A DNA stretch of 64,000 nucleotides. Origin: Verrucomicrobiota bacterium. Its GTDB lineage: Bacteria; Verrucomicrobiota; Verrucomicrobiia; Opitutales; UBA953. The stretch lies in the NCBI GenBank assembly GCA_003569205.1, contig BGOK01000003.1, positions 1-64,000 on the forward strand, read 5' to 3'. Positions 3,001-23,170 of this stretch are shown piece after piece. The number at the start of each line of letters is the position of its first letter. Within the stretch, counting starts at the first letter, position 1. Made by a program: the position numbers and the translations under genes. The notes under the pieces were generated by a model that was given only the letters and a program-made list of their open reading frames with translations, made no database searches and was not told the DNA's origin.

Positions 3001-6000
3001 TCGGTGGCATCGCCCTCGAGCTGGCGGGCTTCACGCTCACCAAGACGGGCAGCAACACCATCGCCATCGATGGCCCGATCGTCGCCGAAGGTAACCTCAC
3101 GGTGGCCCAGGGTAAGCTAAGCATCCTCGGTGGTACCACGGTCTTGGCCGGTACGACCCTGCCGGGCTTGATCACAGTCAGTCGGGCGCCACCTTGGAAC
3201 TCGGTGGCAGCGTTAGCTCCTTCGGCTTCACCCGGGCGGTCAACCTCCTGACTGGTTCGACCTTGGCCACCACCGCGAACTCCGCGATCTCCACGGGCTC
3301 GGCCATCACGGTGCGGGCGCCGTCACCCTTAATATTGGCGCGGGTGGTTCGTTCAACCCAGGCCGTGGCCATCACGGGCACCGCTAACCTGGCGAAGACC
3401 GGTTACGGCCGTCTCATCTTGGCTGCCTTGGTCGATAACGATATCACCGGTAACCTCACCATCACTGAAGGTAACGTCCAGGTCTCCGATTCGCTCGGCC
3501 TCCCGAGCGGTACCATTACCCTCACGGCTCAGCCTGGCGCCGACGTTAATCGCCGCACCCGCCTCGAGCTCGGCACCGGCGTCACGGTGGCCAATAACAT
3601 CGTCATCAATGGCCATGCGGCTGGCAGCCTTGTCGGCACGGGTGCCGTCATGCTGACCACGAGCACGGACATCGCCACGGTTTCTGGTAGCATCACCTTC
3701 AACGCGGGCGTCACCTCGGGCGGCAGTTTCATCTCGGCTGTCGACGATACTGGCACCATCGCCGCCACCGGTTACCTCGCCTTGACCGGCGACCTCATCG
3801 CCGGCACCGCGCAGCCGACGGTCCGTAAGGGTACGCTCCTCCTGAACCCAACGGGTACGGGCTCGAGCTACTCCCTGTTCACCATGCAGGAAGGCACCCT
3901 GCGCCTCGGTAAGAATAACGCGCTGCTGACCTCTGCAGAAATCCTCCTGGGCGTCTACGGGGCCGGCAGCTCGGTCGACCTGAACGGCTTCAGCCAAGAC
4001 TTCATCAAGGTTACCAAGGGCACCTTAGGCGCCACCATCACCAACACCAACACCACCACCATGGGTGTGGCGAACTTCACGAACACCGTTGAAACCACCT
4101 ATGCGGGTACCCTCGCCAATGGCGCAGTCGGCCTCGGCCTCGTTCGCCTCAATAAGACCGGTACGGGCAACCTCATCCTGACCGGCGTCAACACGCATAA
4201 AGACGGCACCTTCCTCACCACTGGCACGTTGGAACTCCGCGGTACCACCATCTTGGCCGCCAATACGGCCGTCGACGTCGCGGCGGGTACGACGCTGAAG
4301 ATCACCAACGCCAACGCCGACCTGACGATGGCCGCCAACATCACTGGCTCGGGCACGGTGCGCATCGACAGTAACATCTCGGGTGCGGCAGGCGCCCGCG
4401 GGGTGACGCTCTCCGGCGACAACCGCGGCTTTACGGGAACGTACATCCTCGAGCCGACCGCTTCGGGTATTTCGACCCCGAATACCGAACGTATCATCGT
4501 CACGAACGGCAATACTTTCGGTGCGGCGAACGTGATTATTAAGGATCGCGCCCAGGTCTGGATGCAGGGCGGCACTTACACCAATAACTTCACCATCACC
4601 GGTTGGGGCTTCGGCGATTCACAAGCCGTCGGTGGCACCCCAGCTCTCGGCTTGAACCTCCCCAACTACGCCGCGGCGGGTCAGGGTGGTATCGGGGCCT
4701 TCCGCTTGAACGCCAATACCATCGTCACGGGCACGGTTACCCTCGATGGCGACGCCAAGGTCACGGCTTATGGCGCTACGGCGAGCCTCAATGGCTCCTT
4801 GGGCACCACCAACAGCACCGACCGCCTCATCATCGGCGGCGGCGGTAGCGCGACCACTATCATCCTCGGCGGCACGAACAATGTCGGTACCAACGCCCTC
4901 CGCGACATCTGGATTAATTCTGGTGGTGGCACTAGCAGCGCACAGCTGACCATCGGCGGTGGTACCGCCGCCGGCACGCTCGGCACGGGCAAGGTCACCC
5001 TCTACACCGACGCCACCCTTACTGGCGTCGCCGTCCTGAATATCAGTCGCACCGATGGCTACACCATGGAAGCCGGCCAGCTCGTCGAAGCCGTCGCCCC
5101 GGTCGGCTTGTCGACGAACATGTCGAAGGCCGAATTCCGCGCCAACACCGCCGGCACAGGCCTGACGCTCAACGGCGCCCAGATCATCCTGTCTAACCTG
5201 ACGAACGCGGGCGGTAACTTCCGAGTCGCCACCGAAGTCGATGGCGCGATCGTGAACATCGACGCGGGCTCGCTCGTCAAGGTGAACGTGATTCAAATCT
5301 CTGAAGCTGCTAATATGGGTGGTACGGTCAACCAGACGGGCGGTATCGTCCAGCAGTTCGGTTCGACCTCCATGCGCGTCGGCCATTACGCGGGTCGCGT
5401 CAGCACCTACAACCTCTCGGGCGGTAGCCTCGAGATGGTCAACCCGGCCCCGGGTTCCGCTCCGGCGGGTGGCGCCGAGCAGGCCGGTGGTATCTACGTC
5501 GGCGTCGACGGCGTCGGCGTCTTCAACCAGACCGGCGGTTCCATCAAGACCCCGTGGATGGTCCTCGACAACCGTGGTGCCAACGCGGCCATCGACGGTA
5601 TCGTCTCCAAGTATAGTCTCTCCGCTGGCACCTTGGAATTCACCGCGGGCACGGGCCTCATCTCGAATAACCTCCTCACGGGCACCGCTGCCTGGTCGGG
5701 CGGTACGATCCGTAACGCGGCGCCAAGCTCCAACGTCGCCATCAACACGAACATCGTCGTGACTGGCACAACCGCGACGCTCGACACCGTCGACGCGAAC
5801 CGCGGCTTCGTCTTCAACCGTGAAGTCACGGGCGGCGGCACGGTGACCACTTCTGGTGGCGGTACCATCTTCGTGACGACGGCCGCGACACAGACCTTCG
5901 ACCTCGTCATGGCGGGCACCAGCGGCTTGACCAAGCAGGGCACGGGTACGACGACCCTCATCGGCAACCAGACTTACTCCGGCCCGACCCTCGTCAGCAC

Positions 6001-9000
6001 GGGTACGCTGAGCCTCGCGGGCAATATCCCGAACTCCGACCTCTCCGTCTCAGCTGGTGCCAACCTGCAGGGTCTCGGTACGGCTAAGTCGATCACCTTC
6101 GGTAACTTCACGTCGTTCTCGGCCGACCCTTCGGCCAGCTCGATCCTCACCGCTACGAACGCCTTCAGCGTCGCCGCGGGCGGCCTCGTCACGGTCAACC
6201 TCCTCGGTGGCCCGGCCACGAGCGCGCCGTTCGCGATCCTGAACTACGGTTCGACCACCGCCACCGGCGCTAACTTCGCCCTCTCCGGTGCTGGTAGCTA
6301 CCGCAGCGCCCCGACCTTCAACGTCGGTGCCACCAGCACCACCTTGGCCCTCGGCTTTGGTGAACTCGTCTGGACCAACGGCGGCGCTAACGCCTCGTGG
6401 GATGCGGCCTCGAATAACTTCTTTAACATCGGCACCTCCCTGGCCGACAAGTTCATCTTCGGCGACATCGTGACCTTCGATGATTCCCTTGGCGTATCGC
6501 AGGGCGTCAACTTCGTGGGTAACATCCGCCCAACGACGACCATCGTCAATAACTCGACCTACGATTACACCCTGACCTCATCCGCGGGTAATACCCTCGG
6601 CGGCTATGGCCAGGTCATCAAGCGCGGCACGGGCGTCCTGAATATGGCTGGCGTCGCCAACACCTTCACCGGTGGCACGCTCCTCAGCGCCGGTCGCATC
6701 AACGTCGGCGCTGCGGGCTCGCTCGGCACGGGTCGCATCACCCTCGGTGCCACCGACACCGCGGCGAACAACGTCTCGCTCTACATCTCGGGTACGCGCG
6801 TCGTGGGCAACCTCACCAACGCTATCCTGGTCAGCAGCAACGCTGGTGGCGTAGTCAAGATTGGTTCGGACGTCAGCGTCACTGGCGCCGGCGTGATGGG
6901 CTTCAGCGGCATCACGCTCCAACGCGACCTCATCCTCGACTCCAATGCGGCCGATCGCACGGACTACACCGGCATCACCGGTACCGGTAATGTGACCTTC
7001 GTCGGCACGGGACGCACGATTTTGGGTATCGGCTTGGCGAACACCTTTACGGGTAATGTGACCCTCGCTGGCACGGGCCGCGTCCAGATTGGCGCCGCCA
7101 CCGGTGGTACGCTCGACGGCATCCCGGACAACGCCACCGTCACCATCAACGCGGGCAGCGAACTCGCCATGTCGGCGGGCGCTGAAATCATCGGCGGCCT
7201 CTCCGGCGCCGGCAATATCACCACGAATTCACAGGCTGGTACCCTCACGGTCGGCACGGGCAACGCCACGAGCACCTTCTCTGGCGTCATTGGAGACACC
7301 GTGGGCTTCGCCCTCGGCCTTAATAAGGTCGGCACGGGTAGGCTGACCCTCTCGGGCGCCAATACCTTCACCGGCGCGGTCCAGGTCGGTACCCTCGTCG
7401 CTCCAGGCGGCACCCTCGAACTCACGGGCGCTAATGCCTTCGGGGCGATGACGGTCTTCGCCGGCATGGTCAACGTCAGCGCTTCCCAGAACAATACCGG
7501 CAACATCACGCTGAACAACGGTGCGACCCTCGACGTCCTCGCCGGCGGTCAGCTCTTCAACTCGGCCTACAACAATACGGCCATCGTCACCGTGAACGCC
7601 GGGGCCACCTGGCGCATGGTCAACCTGGCCTACGGTTCAAACGCAGGCGGTCAGTTATCCGATTACGCTGCTCGTCGCGTGCTCAACGGCGGCACGATGA
7701 TCGTCACCGGCGACACGCAGGACGTCGGCAATAACTTCACTGTCAATGCGACCACCGGCGGCACCTTCCGCTACGCCCCGACCAACGTCGGCCAGACGCT
7801 CACCTTCTCCGGCAACGCCAACGGCGATATCGCGCTCAACGGCCCGCTCGCCCTCCAGGTCGTCGGCGGCACCCTCGCTATCAACGAGAACATCGTTGGT
7901 GCGGGTAGCATCACGAAGACCGGTAACGGTAATCTCACCCTCGGTGGCGTGAATACCTTCACGGGCAACCTCGTGATTTCCGAAGGCGCCTTCAATATCA
8001 ACGGCGCCTATGCGCTCGGTCGTGGTACGGTCTCGCTCCCAGCGGGCGTCACCCTCGACAACACCAGCGGCGCCGACGTCAACGTCGCGACCGCCACGGC
8101 CATCAACCTCGGTGATGGCGTCCTGAACTTCACCGGTACGAATTCGCTGAGCCTCGGCTACGGCACCGTGACCCTGCCGGCGAACACGACGGTCAACGTT
8201 ACCGCCAAGACCCTCTCCTTGGATGGTCCGGTCGCCGGCGCCTTCGGTATCACCAAGACGGGTGCCGGCACGCTCGCGCTGCATGCTCCGAACAACACCT
8301 TCACTGGTGGCGTCACGGTCAACGCCGGCCTCCTCTCCATCGGCAAGTATGTGACCGGCTCGGCTGGCACGGGCGCCGTGGTCTTCAACGGGGGTGGCAT
8401 CGCCTTCGACGACTACCAAGCCCTTCGCACCTTCGACCTCGCGGGTGACTCGCGTGGTGCCGCCGTCCCAGCCACCACCGTCATCTCGGCGAACTTCAGT
8501 TCGATTCACAACACCACGGGCGACATCGTCCCCCTCAACACCACCCGTGGTTTCGTCGGTAAGCTCTACCTCCCAGCGGGTACCTGGAACTTCCAGGAAG
8601 CCTTCGACGACGGCGTAGCCCTGAAGGTCAACAACTCCGTTATCCTCAATAATGCCGCCTATAACGTTAACACGACGGGCAGCTTCACCGCCACCACCGC
8701 CGGCTGGTATGACATCGACCTCCGCGTCTACCAAGGCACGGGCGGTACCGGTGCCGTCGCGCCCTCGCTGTATGGTGTCGGTATCGCCAATGGCGCCGGC
8801 GCTTATGTGCCGTTCACGACGGCTGGCCTCGCCAGCTTGGGCGTCATCGCGACCGTGGGCACGACCCCGGGCTTCAGCTACGCCGGTGATATTTCGCTTC
8901 TCCAGAACGGTTCGATCAGCTCGACCAACCTCGGCAACTACGACTTCACGCTCTCTGGCGTCATCTCCGGTCCGGCCGACCTCACCAAGCTCGGTGCGGG

Positions 9001-12000
9001 TACGATTGTCCTCACGGGTGCCAACACCTACACCGGTAAGACCATCATCCAGGAAGGCACGCTCGCCCTCACCAGCAGCGCCAACGCCACGACCCTTATT
9101 GAAGTCAACGGCGGCTACCTCCGCTTGGATTCCGCCACCGCCATCCCAGCCGGCGGCGTCGTCCTCAATGGCGGCGGCTTGAAGTTCAACCTCGGCGCCA
9201 CCACGGCGATCACGGTGAACAACCTCACGATCAACGCGGCGGCGACTATCGATACCACTGGCCTCGACGTGACCTTTGGCGGTCCGCTCGCGGGCACGGG
9301 CTCGCTGGTGAAGGCGGGCACGGGCACTACCCCGGGCACCTTGACCTTGGCGAACGGTTCGACCTTCGCTGGCACGACCACGATCGCCGGCGGCAAGCTG
9401 GTTATCGCCAACGACTCCGCCCTCGGCGCCGTCCCGGCCACCGCCACGGCTGGCCAGCTGACCTTCACGGGCGGCTCTCTCCAGACCACGGCTAACGTCA
9501 CCCTCGCCGACAATCGCGGTATCGCGCTCGACGTGAACTCCACGGGTCTCTTCCTCCCGGATGCGGCGACGACCCTCACGGTTAATTCCATCATCGCCAG
9601 CGGCACGGGCACGGGCACGACCAGCGGCAAGCTCGCCCTCGGCTCGGCCACCTCGGGTGCCATCATCCTGAACGGCGTGAATACCTACGCCGGTGACACC
9701 GACCTCCTCGGCAGCACGGTGACGATCGGTAACGACGGCGCCTTCGGTGCGGGCACGAACCTGAACCTCCCGACCGGCGTCACCGCCGCGACCCTCCAGT
9801 TTGCAGGTACCGCTACGGGCACGCTGACCAAGGTCGTCAACATCGTCGATAGCCTCGGCACCCTGACCATCGCGGGTGGTGCGAAGGACATCACCCTCAG
9901 CAGCGGCCTCACCGGCGCTGGCTCCCTCGTCCAGACGGGTTCGGGTAAGCTCATCCTCGGCGGCACGAGCCTCTTCGCGGGTGCCATCGCGGCCGATAAC
10001 ACCATCGTCCTGAATACCGCCACGGCGATTGCCGGGGGGAACACGGGCGCAACCCTGCGCTTCGGCTCCAGCCCGTCCTACGCTAACGCCGGCACGATTG
10101 TCTACGGCACGGGCGTGACCACGGACGTCTCCAACCTCCTCGGCGCAACCGCCATGCCGGCCCTCACCGTCGACACCGGTGCCAACAACGTCACCTGGGC
10201 TTCGGCCGTGTACGGCGCCTTTGTCCTCACTAAGAAGGGTGCAGGCGAATTGAACTTCGAAGGCCTTGATCCAATCCAAGCAGGCTCCGTCAATATCGCC
10301 GCCGGTACCTTGACCATGGCGAAGTCGACGTCCCTCAATGGCGTCGTCTCCTCTGGTGCCTTCGGGACGCCGGCCTTTGTTACCTTCACGGGTGATGCTA
10401 CCCTCAAGTATGCCTCGGGCATCACGACCGACGTCTCCAGCGTCTTGGTCTCCAACGTTGGCAAGACTGGCACCATCGATATCGGTGCCAACAATGTGAC
10501 CTTCGCAGGTGCGCTCTCGGGTGCAGGTAGCTTCGAGAAGATTGGTACTGGCACGCTCACGCTCGCCGCGACCAACGCCTTCACCGGTGGCTTCAAGCTC
10601 ACCCAAGGTACCTTGGAAATCGCCGGGGTCGACACCTTGGATGCTTCGACGGGCCTCGCCTTCACGGGCAATACGACGCTGAAGTTCGCCACGGGTAACA
10701 CCGACGATGTCTCTAATGGCCTGACGGTCGCCGCCACGAAGACGGGCACGATCGACACCAATGGTAACGACGTGAGCTTCGCCAACGCGATCGGTGGCAC
10801 GGGAGCGCTGATCAAGGCTGGTGCGGGTACGCTGACCTTGGATGCACCGACGACCCTCACGGGCGCATTCAATGTGAATGCCGGCACGCTCGCCCTCACC
10901 GCGTTCGGTGGTCTGGCCACCCCGTCGTCCATCACCGTCGGCACGGGCTCTGCTCTCGACACGACCGCTGCTCCTGGCTTCTCGCTCGCTACTGGCCAAA
11001 CCCTCTCCGGTCTCGGTACGGTCAACGTCGGTACCGCCAAGACGCTCACGATCGCCACGGGCTCCACACTCAACGCCACGGGCCTCTCGGTCACCGGCAA
11101 GCTCACGCTCGCTGGCACCTATGCGGCTACCCTCGGTGCCCCTGGTACCGCCCTAGCGCCGAATGCTGCTGCCCAGACCAACGTCAGCGGTAACGTCACC
11201 CTCGGTGGCACGCTCAGCCTCACCTCTAACGGTGCAGGCGCGGGTGCTTACCAGATCATTAATGGTTCGGGCACGACGACGGGTAGTTTCGCCACCATCA
11301 ACGTTGCTGGTATCAATAACGCCCTCCTCCACCAGGAGGTTATTGCGACCGCGGGCGTCACGGGCGTCAACCTCGTCCGCGTCGCCACCACGACCGGCAC
11401 GCTTCCGACGACCGTCAACTACGGCGCTATCCGTCCAACCGCCGCTGCCTTCAGCACGACCCTGAACTTCGCCAACACCACCACGGCGGACGGCTTCAGC
11501 GAAGCCCTCACGGGTTCGGTCTCGGCCAACGGCACGGGCTTCACGACCGCCGCTGCGGGCACGACGGGTGTCGTCACCCTCGGCCTCGACTCCCTCACCG
11601 CGGGCGCCAAGACGGGCAGCTCTATCGTCACGGTCTCCTCCGTCGGCGTGGGCACCTTCGCTAACACCTCGCTGGTCACCGGCACGGTGGCGCTCTCTGG
11701 TAACGTCTACGATTACGCGACGGCCACGATTGCTGATGCGACGCTCGCCTTCGGCAATGTCCACGTCGGTGCCACTGGCGTGACCCGCAATGTCTCGGTG
11801 ACCAACACCAAGGTCACCGACGCGGCCTACCAGGACAACCTGTCGGCGACGGCGACGGCGGTCACGGGTCTCTCGGTTAACACGCTCTCAGCCCTCGCGG
11901 CCGATACCTCGGGTAACTTGGTCTTCACGGCTGTGACCGGCACCGCTGGCTCGCTCGCTGGGGCCGTGACCTTCACGCTGAACTCGACGAACACGGTCTC

Positions 12001-14290
12001 GGGCCTCGACGCCAAGGCCCTCGCGACCACGGCCAACGTCACCACGACGGGCCAGGTTTACTCCGGTCTCTCCACCTGGAACGCCACGACCGGTTCGTGG
12101 GGTCGCTTCGTCTCGGGCTTCGGCACTAACTGGGGCACGAATCAGGGTTCGCCAGGTCTCGACGCGGCCTTCGCCAACGTCGACACGGCAACCTTCGATA
12201 ACACCGCCCTCACGAATGGTGCAACCGCGACGGTCAGCCTCGACGGCGCCGCTCCAAGCCTCAAGGCGATTACCTTTAACACCACGGGCGGCGGTTACAC
12301 CCTCGATGCTGGTTCCGGCGGTGCGCTCACCCTCGCTTCTGGTTTGGGCAACGCGGCCGTCACGGCCACCGCGGGTAATCACACCATCGCCACGGACCTC
12401 ACGCTCTCCACGGCCCTGGATGCCGTCGTCGGCACGGGCGCTAAGCTGACGCTTTCGGGCGCCGTCTCCGGCACCGTCGGCCTCGCGAAGTCGGGCGCTG
12501 GTACGCTGACGCTCGCAGGTAACAACTCTGGCTACACGGGTGCCGTCACCCTCGCTGCGGGTACCCTCGAGCTCAACTCCTTCAACGCGATCATCAACGC
12601 TTCCGCACTGAACGTCACCGGTAACTCGACGCTCCTTTACGGCATCGGTAACACGACGGACGTCTCGGCTAAGCTCGGCACCATCGCCGCGGGCACAACC
12701 CTCACGGTCGATACCAACGGTAATATCCTGACCTACGCCTCCACGATCACCTCGGCCGGTACCTTGGTGAAGGATAACTCCGGTACACTCATCCTCGGTG
12801 CAGCGAACAGCCTCACGGGTGCGCTCAACGTGACTGGCGGTTCCGTCCGCCTGACCAACGCGGGCGCCCTCGGTACGGCCGCTGTCACGGTCGGAGCGGG
12901 TTCCTTCCTCGACCTGAATACCCTTAACGCCACGGGTGCCGCGATCGTCCTCGACGGTGGTACGCTCTCCCGCACCTCGGCCTACACCGGCACGGTGACC
13001 TTCACCGCCGCCTCGCTCAATTCGGGCCTCCTCAGCCTGGCAGGCACGGCCAAGGTTGGCGTCCTCACTGGCCAGACGGCTGCCATCAACGGTGAGACCC
13101 GCGATATCGAACTCAACGGCGGTACGCTCTCGGGCCTCTCGAGCTTCACCGGTACGCTCATCGTGAAGTCGACGCTCGATGCCTCGGCGACGATCTCGGC
13201 CGGTGCCGTCACCCTTGATGGCGGTACGATCAACCTCCAGGGCCTGAACTCCACCAAGAGTCTCGGTTACCTCGCCGGCCAGCTCGCCAACGCCAGTGGT
13301 TACACGGGTAACGTCGAAATCCTCGGTGCCGTTACCCTCGCAACGGGCACGCTCGGTAACGGTGTCATCCAGGTCGGTTCGGGCGACACGGTAACCCTCG
13401 CGAATAACGGCCTGAATAACGCCATCGCCCTTTCGGGTGGTACGGTCGACTTCAACGGCAAGACCGCCACTTCGTCCATCGCTTACACCAACGGTACGCT
13501 GACCAACGCCACTGGCTACACCGGCGACGTCACCTTAGCCTCCGCTGGCTCCAAGACCCTGACCGCGGGCTCCCTCGGTTCGGCTCGCGTGATTACCCCG
13601 ACTGGTACGACCCTCGACTTCGCGGCTGGCTTCAACAACGCGGTCCGCAACACGGGCGGCGCGGTGACCAACGGTACTAACTACACGGGTACGATGGCCT
13701 ATGCCGGCGGCCAGTCCATTAACGTCACGGCCGACCAGGTGGCCAAGCTGACCTTCGAGTCAGGTACGACCGCTAAGGGTTCGGGTACGCTCACCGACCT
13801 CGGCTTCGCGGCGGGTTCGGCTTACACGATGAACATCAAGGACGGCGCCGGCGTCGCCGGGGTCGGCTTCGACTCCGTGACGGTCACGGGTGCGCTCAAC
13901 CTCGCATCGCTGTCCTCTGCCAACCGCATGACCCTGAACGTGGTCTCGCTCGATAGCACGAACGGCGTGGGTGGCAATATCGCCAACCAGACCTTCGCTT
14001 GGAATGACCCGAAGAACTTCACGCTCTTCACGTACGGCACGCTCAGCTTGGGCAACGGCGTGACGAATGTGGCCGACCTCTTCACGGTCAACTACGCCAA
14101 CTTCAAGGACAAGTATGGCGTCACCGCCCAGTCCGATTGGTTCACGGTGTCCAACGATAGCATCAACGGGGCCATCGTCCTCACCGCGATTCCTGAGCCT
14201 TCCACCTACGGCATGAGCCTCGCTGGCCTCGCCTTGGCCCTCGCCGCCATCCGCCGCCGCAATAAGCGGAAGGCCGACGCGGCCAAGTAA
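1..14290 (+). CDS. Giant autotransporter-associated beta-strand repeat (PATR-type) surface protein with C-terminal PEP-CTERM signal; 5' end outside window; intact frame 3194..14290, upstream part frameshifted
   Basis: Many repeats of the type 'GxGTLTLxGxNTYTGxTxVxxGTL' throughout. C-terminus IPEPSTYGMSLAGLALALAAIRRRNKRKADAAK is a PEP-CTERM motif plus TM plus basic tail. The same repeat type continues upstream to base 1 in alternating frames. Confidence 0.93.
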
Positions 14291-14341: not shown

Positions 14342-14777
14342 TGCGGCGGCTTTGCCGCCTGTCTCGAGGTAGGGTCAGCACTGCGTGCTGAGATGCAGGA
14401 GTACGGATTACGGAGTACGGAGTACAGAGTACAGAGGTAAAGGGGGACCGGTGGGCTAGGGGTGCAAAGGTGCAAAGGTGCAAATCGGCCTACGGCCTGT
14501 GCAAAGGTAAATACCCAAACAGGTAGAGCCATTCCCTGTCCGCCAACCGCCCGCCGCTATTTCCTTTATTGGTAGGGTCGTGGCTACGTGCTGAGATGCA
14601 GGAGTACGGAGTACGGATTACGGAGTACAGAGTACAGAGTATAGATTACAGAGGTAAAGGGGGACCGGGAACCGGAGGAAAAAGGGAATACAGGCTGCCC
14701 CTACCCGAGATAGAGCCATTCTCTATCCGCCAACCGCCAACCCCCAACCCCCAGCCCCCAACCCCTCTCGGCCAACC
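14342..14777. repeat. Intergenic mosaic repeat island 1
   Basis: Contains GGCGGC-TTT-GCCGCC, GGTAGGGTCAGCAC-TGC-GTGCTGA, the 47-nt GGTGCAAA module, degenerate GAGTACGGATTACGGAGTACAGAGTACAGAG repeats and a C-rich tract; modules shared with islands 2 and 3. Confidence 0.85.
14466..14512 (+). repeat. 47-nt module copy 1 (aaaggtgcaaaggtgcaaatcggcctacggcctgtgcaaaggtaaat)
   Basis: Identical to 18461..18507 and 22937..22983. Confidence 0.95.
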
Positions 14778-16103
14778 CTACCTCTCCAACGCTGGGCGCT
14801 TGGGGTCGAATTTCCAACCGGGTATCAGGAATTGCATGGCGACGGCGTCGTCGCGGGAGCCGGAGGGGAGCTTGCGATAAAGTTGGTGCGCGGCTTCGAG
14901 CTGGGCGGAGTCGATGACGACACCGAGGCCCGGCTGCTGAGGGACCGCTATCTTACCGCCCTTGATCTGCAGGGGCTCCTGCGTGAGGCGTTGGCCTTCT
15001 TGCCAAATCCAGTGCGTATCCATCGCAGTGACGTTGCCGGGGGCGGCGGCGCCGACGTGCGTGAACATCGCGAGGGAGATATCAAAGTGGTTATTGGAGT
15101 GCGAACCCCAGGTGAGGCCACGCTCCGAACAGACTTGGGCGACCTGCACGGAGCCCTGCATCGTCCAGAAGTGTGGGTCCGCGAGCGGGATGTCCACAGC
15201 TTCAAGTTTAAGCGCGTGCTCCAGTTGGCGCCAGTCGGTGGCGACCATGTTCGTCGCGGTGCGCAGGCCGGTGGCCTTCTTGAATTCCGCCATGATTTCG
15301 CGGCCCGAGAAGCCGCCTTCCGCGCCGCAAGGGTCTTCGGCGTAAGCGAGGACGCCCTTCAGGTTCTGGCAGACCTCGACGGCTTCCTTGAGGAGCCACG
15401 CGCCGTTCGGGTCGAGGGTAATGCGGGCCTGCGGGAAGCGGGCAGCCAAGGCACGGACAGCTTCGACCTCACGGGCGGCACTGAGGACGCCGCCCTTGAG
15501 TTTGAAGTCCTGGAACCCGAAGCGTTCCTGCGCGGCCTCGGCCTGCCGGACGATACTCTCGGGCGTCAACGCTTCATCATTGCGGAGACGATGCCAAGCG
15601 TGGGCGGACGTGGACTCATCGCGATAGCCGAGAGTCGTTTTACGGTGGTCACCGATGAAGAAGAGGTAGCCGAGCATCTCGACCTCAGAGCGCTGTTGGC
15701 CCTTACCCAGTAAAGCTGCCACGGGCTTCTGCTGGAATTGACCGAGTAAGTCGAGGAGGGCGGACTCAATCGCCGTGACGGCGTGGATGGTCACGCGCAG
15801 GTCAAAGGTCTGGAGGCCGCGGCCACCGGCGTCGCGGTCGGAGAAGGCGGCGCTGACCTTAGCTAACAAAGACGCGTAGTCGGCGATGGGTTGTCCAAGG
15901 AGTAGGGCCGTCGCATCTTCGACCGTCTGGCGGATCTTCTCCCCGCCGGGGACTTCGCCGAGGCCGGTGTGGCCGGCGTTATCGGTGATGAGGATGATAT
16001 TACGGGTAAAGAAAGGTCCGTGGGCGCCGCTGAGGTTGAGCAGCATGCTATCGTGGCCAGCGACGGGAACGACACGGACAGATTGGATGAGCGGAGAGGA
16101 CAT
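14778..16103 (-). CDS. gudD: Glucarate dehydratase (enolase superfamily)
   Basis: 441 aa; GudD-like throughout (e.g. [54 protein letters not shown]). Confidence 0.88.
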
Positions 16104-18547: not shown

Positions 18548-18614
18548 GGGTAGGGTCGGGACTGCGTCCCGACATAGCAGGCAACTAGGTTGGCACGCAG
18601 TGCCAACCCTACCC
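18548..18614. repeat. REPIN-like inverted pair of GTAG-prefixed palindromes
   Basis: GGGTAGGGT (18548..18556) to ACCCTACCC (18606..18614), enclosing hairpins 18555..18573 (loop TGC) and 18588..18608 (loop GCA). Confidence 0.8.
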
Positions 18615-22896: not shown

Positions 22897-22936
22897 GCGC
22901 GAGCGAAGCTCGCGAGGGGGCAGGTGGAAAAGGTGC

Positions 22937-22983
22937 AAAGGTGCAAAGGTGCAAATCGGCCTACGGCCTGTGCAAAGGTAAAT
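22937..22983 (+). repeat. 47-nt module copy 3
   Basis: Identical to copies at 14466..14512 and 18461..18507. Confidence 0.95.
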
Positions 22984-23030
22984 AGTAAAACAGGCAGGGG
23001 CGTGGCTTCGCCGCGCCTGTATCTTCGCGA

Positions 23031-23117
23031 GGTAGGGTCAGCACTGCGTGCTGACCTAGCGGCATCGAGTTAAAAGAAAGGCAGGCAACTAGGTTGGCAC
23101 GCAGTGCCAACCCTACC
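23031..23117. repeat. REPIN-like inverted pair of GTAG-prefixed palindromes
   Basis: GGTAGGGT (23031..23038) to ACCCTACC (23110..23117), enclosing hairpins 23036..23056 and 23092..23112. Confidence 0.8.
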
Positions 23118-23170
23118 TTCCCCCTAGCCAACCATACTCTAGCCCCCCTTGTCCCCCCGTTCGCTACCAC

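Follow-up and report, generated by a model that had tools for sequence, protein, structure and literature searches.

We suggest, with a probability of about 0.9, that positions 23031-23117 of the window (the whole 64,000-nt stretch of DNA that was analysed) hold a REPIN, i.e. inverted GTAG-type REPs, and that these REPs are non-autonomous substrates of a short HUH/Y1 RAYT (TnpA-REP), which would act on them by the mechanism proposed below. It is well supported that the element belongs to a group-3-like REPtron with heterodimeric REPs, the likeness to group 3 being one of anatomy. Across the copies, hairpin integrity is kept while the stem letters change and the foot, the loop and the TAG tail stay fixed. 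Moreover, each hairpin type is associated with a single RAYT lineage, and the REP pairs next to cognate RAYT genes consist of different, matched left and right types. Elements of this kind are already known; what is new are the REPIN sequences, the link to RAYTs in this genus and the order of the left and right stems.

Anatomy and surroundings of the element

The 87 bases at 23031-23117 consist of two inward-facing REPs with their GTAG feet on the outer sides. The + half (23031-23056) reads GGTAG-GGTCAGCAC-TGC-GTGCTGACC and the - half (23092-23117) GGTAG-GGTTGGCAC-TGC-GTGCCAACC, each followed by TAG, and 35 nt lie between the two hairpins. In the left half, the 9-bp stem begins directly after the GTAG at 23032-23035. 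A preliminary description of this DNA had given the sequence, the coordinates and the abutting of GTAG and stem correctly to the base, and its reading as a REPIN, with two inverted REPs facing inward across a short spacer, holds as well. Between the left and the right half two stem pairs differ (C-G/T-A and A-T/G-C), and both differences are compensated. The window has 63% G+C. The features of the element and its surroundings are:

14362..14790, no strand: island 1, degenerate REPs; one has no 3' arm after GTGCTGA and the stem of another is damaged
18549..18613, no strand: island 2, heterotypic REPIN; + half of the CGGGAC type with the outer pair broken, - half TTGGCAC
22932..23022, + strand: accompanying intergenic repeat (GGTGCAAAGGTGCAAATCGGCCTACGGCC...) of repeat family D6, also in islands 1 and 2
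23031..23056, + strand: left REP half (CAGCAC type); foot GGTAG 23031-23035, 5' arm 23036-23044, loop TGC 23045-23047, 3' arm 23048-23056
23057..23059, + strand: TAG tail of the left half, giving a CT dinucleotide with the last stem base
23060..23088, no strand: spacer between the tails of both halves, variable among copies
23089..23091, - strand: TAG tail of the right half, conserved in TTGG copies
23092..23117, - strand: right REP half (TTGGCAC type); foot GGTAG 23117-23113, 5' arm 23112-23104, loop TGC 23103-23101, 3' arm 23100-23092

The CT dinucleotide is the cut site of known TnpA-REP enzymes (PMC8266576). Of 31 TTGG copies, all 31 have the TAG tail, and with it CT, next to the stem on its 3' side, while conservation is at background a few bases past TAG and directly upstream of the foot, and no conserved cleavage motif was found upstream of the foot in these copies. 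In the TTGG copies, conservation ends at the single 29-nt REP; still, the pairing of left and right halves is kept in many pairs, with the spacer of CAG/TTGG pairs ranging from 13 to 35 nt. A GTAG foot directly before a palindrome and a high copy number characterize these repeats as GTAG-type REPs, and all three islands of the window are intergenic.

The + half of island 2 (18549) reads GGTCGGGAC-TGC-GTCCCGACA. The preliminary description had held that it differs from the + half of island 3 (23031-23117) by compensated stem changes, and this is correct for the two differing pairs within the 7-bp stem considered there; beyond that stem, however, the island 2 half has a broken outermost pair (G-A), so that not all differences are compensated. 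The notion of compensatory stem variation likewise needs to be recast, because the pairs are compensated, but islands 2 and 3, and likewise both halves of island 3, represent separate pre-existing REP subfamilies (left type and right type) rather than compensation events in situ.

A second intergenic repeat (GGTGCAAAGGTGCAAATCGGCCTACGGCCTGTGCAAAGGTAAAT; 14461, 18456 and 22932) lies beside all three islands and is also present in related genomes; the D6 copies at 14461 and 18456 are 77-91% identical. Positions 3194-14290 of the window are occupied by a very long gene of autotransporter-like character, which contains passenger-associated repeats and ends in PEP-CTERM (Pfam PATR, PEP-CTERM).

Island 3 lies in a 274-nt gap between convergent genes for a DUF7133/cytochrome c protein and RNase HII (rnhB). 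Such a setting would suit a transcriptional device, i.e. a bidirectional terminator or an mRNA-stabilising hairpin to which REP ancestry is secondary. We regard this as highly improbable because no T-run follows the hairpins of 23031-23117, island 2 precedes a sulfatase gene, and in related species the same gap holds different, rearranged REP sets. A terminator as the main role is rejected on the missing T-run and the rearranged islands. The orthologues of this gap (window 22897-23170) in G009, G017, G020, G031 and G032 have different REP sets (L164, L165, L168, L169); in G017, G020 and partly G032, repeat segments of the gap run the opposite way with respect to the genes on either side, as though the island had undergone an inversion.

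Copies of the hairpin and covariation of its stem

The host genome is a 2.23-Mb MAG in 34 contigs, 85% complete, and the window belongs to contig C3. It was searched whole, and only copy-bearing stretches were taken as loci. The genome contains 47 copies of the island 3 hairpin class, with none for the reversed-pattern control. The left half has seven exact copies in the host genome and is present in 35 of 55 genus genomes, the right half 32 exact copies and a presence in 13 of 55. The foot and loop pattern occurs in 31 of 37 genus genomes but was not found in any of 20 genomes that represent the order's other families, and a control pattern gave one match over all 57 genomes. In 296 kb chosen for REP content, and therefore with a ratio that is not genome-wide, GTAG-foot hairpins number 189 versus 34 with the reversed foot GATG. 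Among the matches listed, GTDB genomes with sequences of the same hairpin are Opitutae/Verrucomicrobiota MAGs, many from lakes. The exception among them is a contig labelled as Polynucleobacter meluiroseus MAG that carries the Opitutales REP (L219 2482-2507), which is probably a binning error. In the genus there are many further REP types with RAYTs of their own, having the loops CAC, CGC, GAC, GCC, CCCT, TCCC/TCCT, TGCC, TACC, TCC and TTC (L113, L115, L131, L066, L097 and others).

To follow the stem, host-genome copies were gathered by the foot and loop pattern GGTAGGG-N6-CTGCG with the 3' arm left free. The resulting 87 exact foot and loop copies represent 19 distinct hairpins and, with six unconstrained pairs each, 522 free pairs; since the copies form subfamilies, their counts do not count independent events. 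Pairing is kept in 511 of the 522 (478 Watson-Crick and 33 G.T) and broken in 11, versus a mean of 315 and a maximum of 354 Watson-Crick pairs when the 3' arms are swapped among copies. Among the 19 distinct hairpins, 92.4% of the cells pair, versus 78% after shuffling and 30-43% with slid partners, and 27 cells are changed on both sides versus 9.4 in the shuffled sets. Comparisons of hairpins that are one pair apart gave nine with Watson-Crick pairs on both sides, two with G.T and two broken. The commonest hairpin, with 32 exact copies over 26 nt, is accompanied by three copies with one mismatch, and all seven copies at two mismatches from it are compensated. Thus, the covariation with fixed foot and loop that had been proposed is present, as is the excess of compensatory changes without which the preliminary description would have withdrawn it.

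The covariation could also have arisen without selection on the fold, namely if both arms change in one step, either because REPs exchange whole hairpins (by RAYT-mediated replacement or conversion) or because replication corrects one arm on the hairpin template (quasi-palindrome correction). One-sided intermediates are rare, as this account would have it, and arm-swap chimeras exist in G020 (TTGGCAC-TGC-GTGCTGACC) and in the host genome (ACCGCAC-TGC-GTGCCAACC), where identical GCGCGAC/GCGCGAC pairs moreover look as if one half had been replaced by the type of the other. However, templated correction is not general, since a G.T at stem pair 3 of the GCGC family is kept in 70 copies and resolved to G-C in one, and exchange cannot give rise to the variety of paired stems that distinguishes the RAYT lineages. 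We therefore consider this account unlikely. Selection on the folded structure, as proposed in the preliminary description, is the best reading of the data, with the qualifications that we infer it from a pattern that whole-hairpin exchange also yields, and that besides the chimeras a mismatched subtype (GGTCGGGAC/GTACCGACC) has been propagated to seven copies.

The G.T of the GCGC family corresponds to an A.C mismatch on the opposite strand, and its fixation indicates that the GTAG strand is the folded strand. REPs of the GCGCGAC/GCGCCAC type (e.g. G000:C10:78970 (L028), L088, L118) have no CT beside the stem, and the RAYT of this family may therefore use another cleavage site.

RAYT lineages and their left and right stems

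Genes matching the model for REP-associated tyrosine transposases are found in 36 of 55 genus genomes. The short RAYT genes (about 140-215 aa) are, with two exceptions, flanked by GTAG hairpins, whereas none of the 17 extended Y1 genes (>235 aa) has adjacent GTAG hairpins, which agrees with the Y1 classes distinguished in the literature (PMC6006769). A tree was made of 54 short genes, including three that belong to the extended class but are truncated; mapped on this tree, the loop type of the hairpins requires 20 changes for 19 labels, while shuffled labels require 41.9 and none of 200 shuffles is as low. The association of stem subfamilies with RAYT paralogues, which had been raised as a point to be checked, is thereby borne out. 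Four RAYTs (G002, G007, G016, G026) form a CAGCAC clade with support 100/99. They carry CAGCAC-TGC (+) and CGGCAC-TGC (-), so that in these genomes the RAYT is flanked by its own REP type as in a REPtron. The left half in the window is identical to the + half beside these genes, and the right half is the right half of the clade (CGGCAC) with one pair changed from C-G to T-A.

The RAYT protein matches E. coli TnpA-REP 4ER8 (E 6.4e-5). With the NCBIfam model REP_Tyr_transpos, the cognate RAYT scores 69.5 bits, below the cut-off of 80, which is a score threshold and not a biological feature; a gene above this cut-off is present in only 7 of 55 genus genomes. Among the short RAYT proteins, the predicted HUH motif (HxH) is present in 53 of 54 and the predicted tyrosine motif (of the Y..NPV type) in 50 of 54.

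In the host MAG, 85% complete, and in G017, G020 and G031 no short RAYT was found, yet the host carries the 32 identical right-half copies. The genomes richest in the TTGG half (G000, G009, G017, G020, G022, G031 and G032) have 14-55 exact copies each, and a CAGCAC-clade RAYT was found in none of these seven. By contrast, in three of the four genomes that have such a RAYT, CAG copies are few. The sole Y1 gene detected in the host genome (L006 1453-2366; G000:C8:89232) lies in two overlapping frames and has no adjacent REPs. In relatives (e.g. L087) the gene is a single frame of ~325 aa whose C-terminal end is helix-turn-helix-like, again with no adjacent REPs. As the cognate RAYT, the host gene (L006/L093) was rejected, because it is of the C-terminally extended class, occupies two frames and none of 17 extended genes has neighbouring GTAG hairpins.

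The host REPs might thus be orphan relics, with the RAYT lost and the copies only decaying, and other bacteria are known to have REPs but no RAYT gene (PMC6006769, PMC8049555). However, 32 copies are identical over 26 nt and only three are at one mismatch, while the nearest relatives have diverged by 12-21% in their coding flanks; relics of such an age should have decayed. The letter-identical right-half copies argue against an old loss of the RAYT. We therefore doubt that the copies are relics; missing pieces of the MAG, with the RAYT unassembled, or a recent loss are the plain answers and the likelier ones. Dozens of identical copies without a detectable RAYT raise the question of what keeps the copies alike.

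In all loci collected, which were chosen for REPs, close pairs of REPs face inward in 216 cases versus outward in 35. Of 97 close inward pairs sharing a loop, 92 are heterotypic, an excess that is not independent of shared descent, and five are identical, where the pool of REPs with that loop would give 19.9. Among neighbours in the same direction, 13 of 48 are identical versus 9.6 expected. When partners were shuffled over all inward pairs with loops mixed, identical pairs were not depleted (five seen, 4.1 expected), and the depletion thus depends on the choice of null, being found in the within-loop comparison only. The identical inward pairs all have spacers of at least 59 nt, and at their RAYT loci the CAC and CGC families have homotypic REPs with the gene sitting between them. 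Beside the RAYTs of several lineages, the pairs stand in a fixed order (e.g. +GCGCCAC/-GCGCGAC, +TTGAGCG/-CTGACCA, +GGCGTGCG/-GATGACCG and +GCGGCCAT/-GACGTGAT). With 92 of 97 pairs heterotypic, the two different stems look like a conserved left/right feature rather than drift. The pattern may reflect end identity, avoidance of a palindrome or descent alone.

REP heterodimers have been noted to predominate without an obvious explanation, and an escape from cleavage of long palindromes has been suggested (PMC3733652). In DNA folding predictions, long-range pairing in heterotypic pairs has about -23 kcal/mol versus -34 to -40 kcal/mol in identical pairs; for 58 of 61 pairs in which one or two stem pairs differ, however, the predicted minimum remains the long hairpin, and avoidance of the palindrome is accordingly not established as the sole cause of heterotypy. 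As a tentative and, in our view, possible rule for the genus, most dimer-forming RAYT lineages may keep two different stems with a shared loop in a fixed order, with the two halves serving the RAYT as left and right ends and/or a long perfect palindrome being avoided. If true, this asymmetry of the stems would answer the published question of why REP heterodimers predominate, and the left/right pattern makes that question directly testable.

Proposed mechanism and known systems

Group 3 TnpA-REP requires the loop bases, GTAG and a paired stem, GTAG guides cleavage at CT, and the complementary strand is not used (PMC8266576). The invariant foot, loop and CT-bearing tail, together with stem letters that are free but paired, give the elements described here an anatomy that fits this biochemistry. 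In the model that we suggest, each half would fold when the DNA is single-stranded, either as lagging-strand template or in excised form. The RAYT would recognise the loop, the foot and the paired stem, with GTAG as guide, and may then cut at the CT beside the stem, copying or moving REP or REPIN units. Hairpins that no longer pair would no longer be copied, leaving covariation behind. The different left and right stems could provide end identities for the RAYT or break up what would be a 31-bp perfect palindrome. In one genus of freshwater Opitutales, the RAYT lineages are matched by 19 hairpin labels, or roughly a dozen clear types, so that this genus offers a natural dataset for the co-change of a single-strand nuclease and its hairpin.

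Among the closest known systems are group 3/subclass 2.5 REPtrons such as REP-Sm/TnpA-Sm of Stenotrophomonas maltophilia (PMC8266576, PMC3686654, PMC6006769), which share a GTAG foot abutting a perfect stem of 8-9 bp, a 3-nt loop, CT at the stem, a short RAYT with REPs of its own type on its flanks and many types per group. However, the sequences, the host phylum and the loop letters are others, and here the RAYT-flanking pairs are heterotypic in a fixed order in most lineages. The REPINs of Pseudomonas fluorescens SBW25 are likewise intergenic inverted REP doublets with a spacer, and compensatory hairpin changes were already noted there, but their unit is a doublet described as symmetrical, while our element has two unlike halves and, in the TTGG copies, conservation ends at the 29-nt REP (PMC3116915). 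The BIMEs of E. coli (Y and Z REPs, TnpA-REP; PMC8266576, PMC6006769) resemble our elements in having an asymmetric REP pair around a RAYT homologue; E. coli REPs, however, are imperfect palindromes with a required internal bulge, whereas the stems here are perfect or have one G.T. Finally, dimers with different stems are known as REP heterodimers, and GTAG repeats are known in Verrucomicrobiota from Opitutus terrae (PMC3733652). Compared with those heterodimers, both stems are here tied to the RAYT lineage and to an order.
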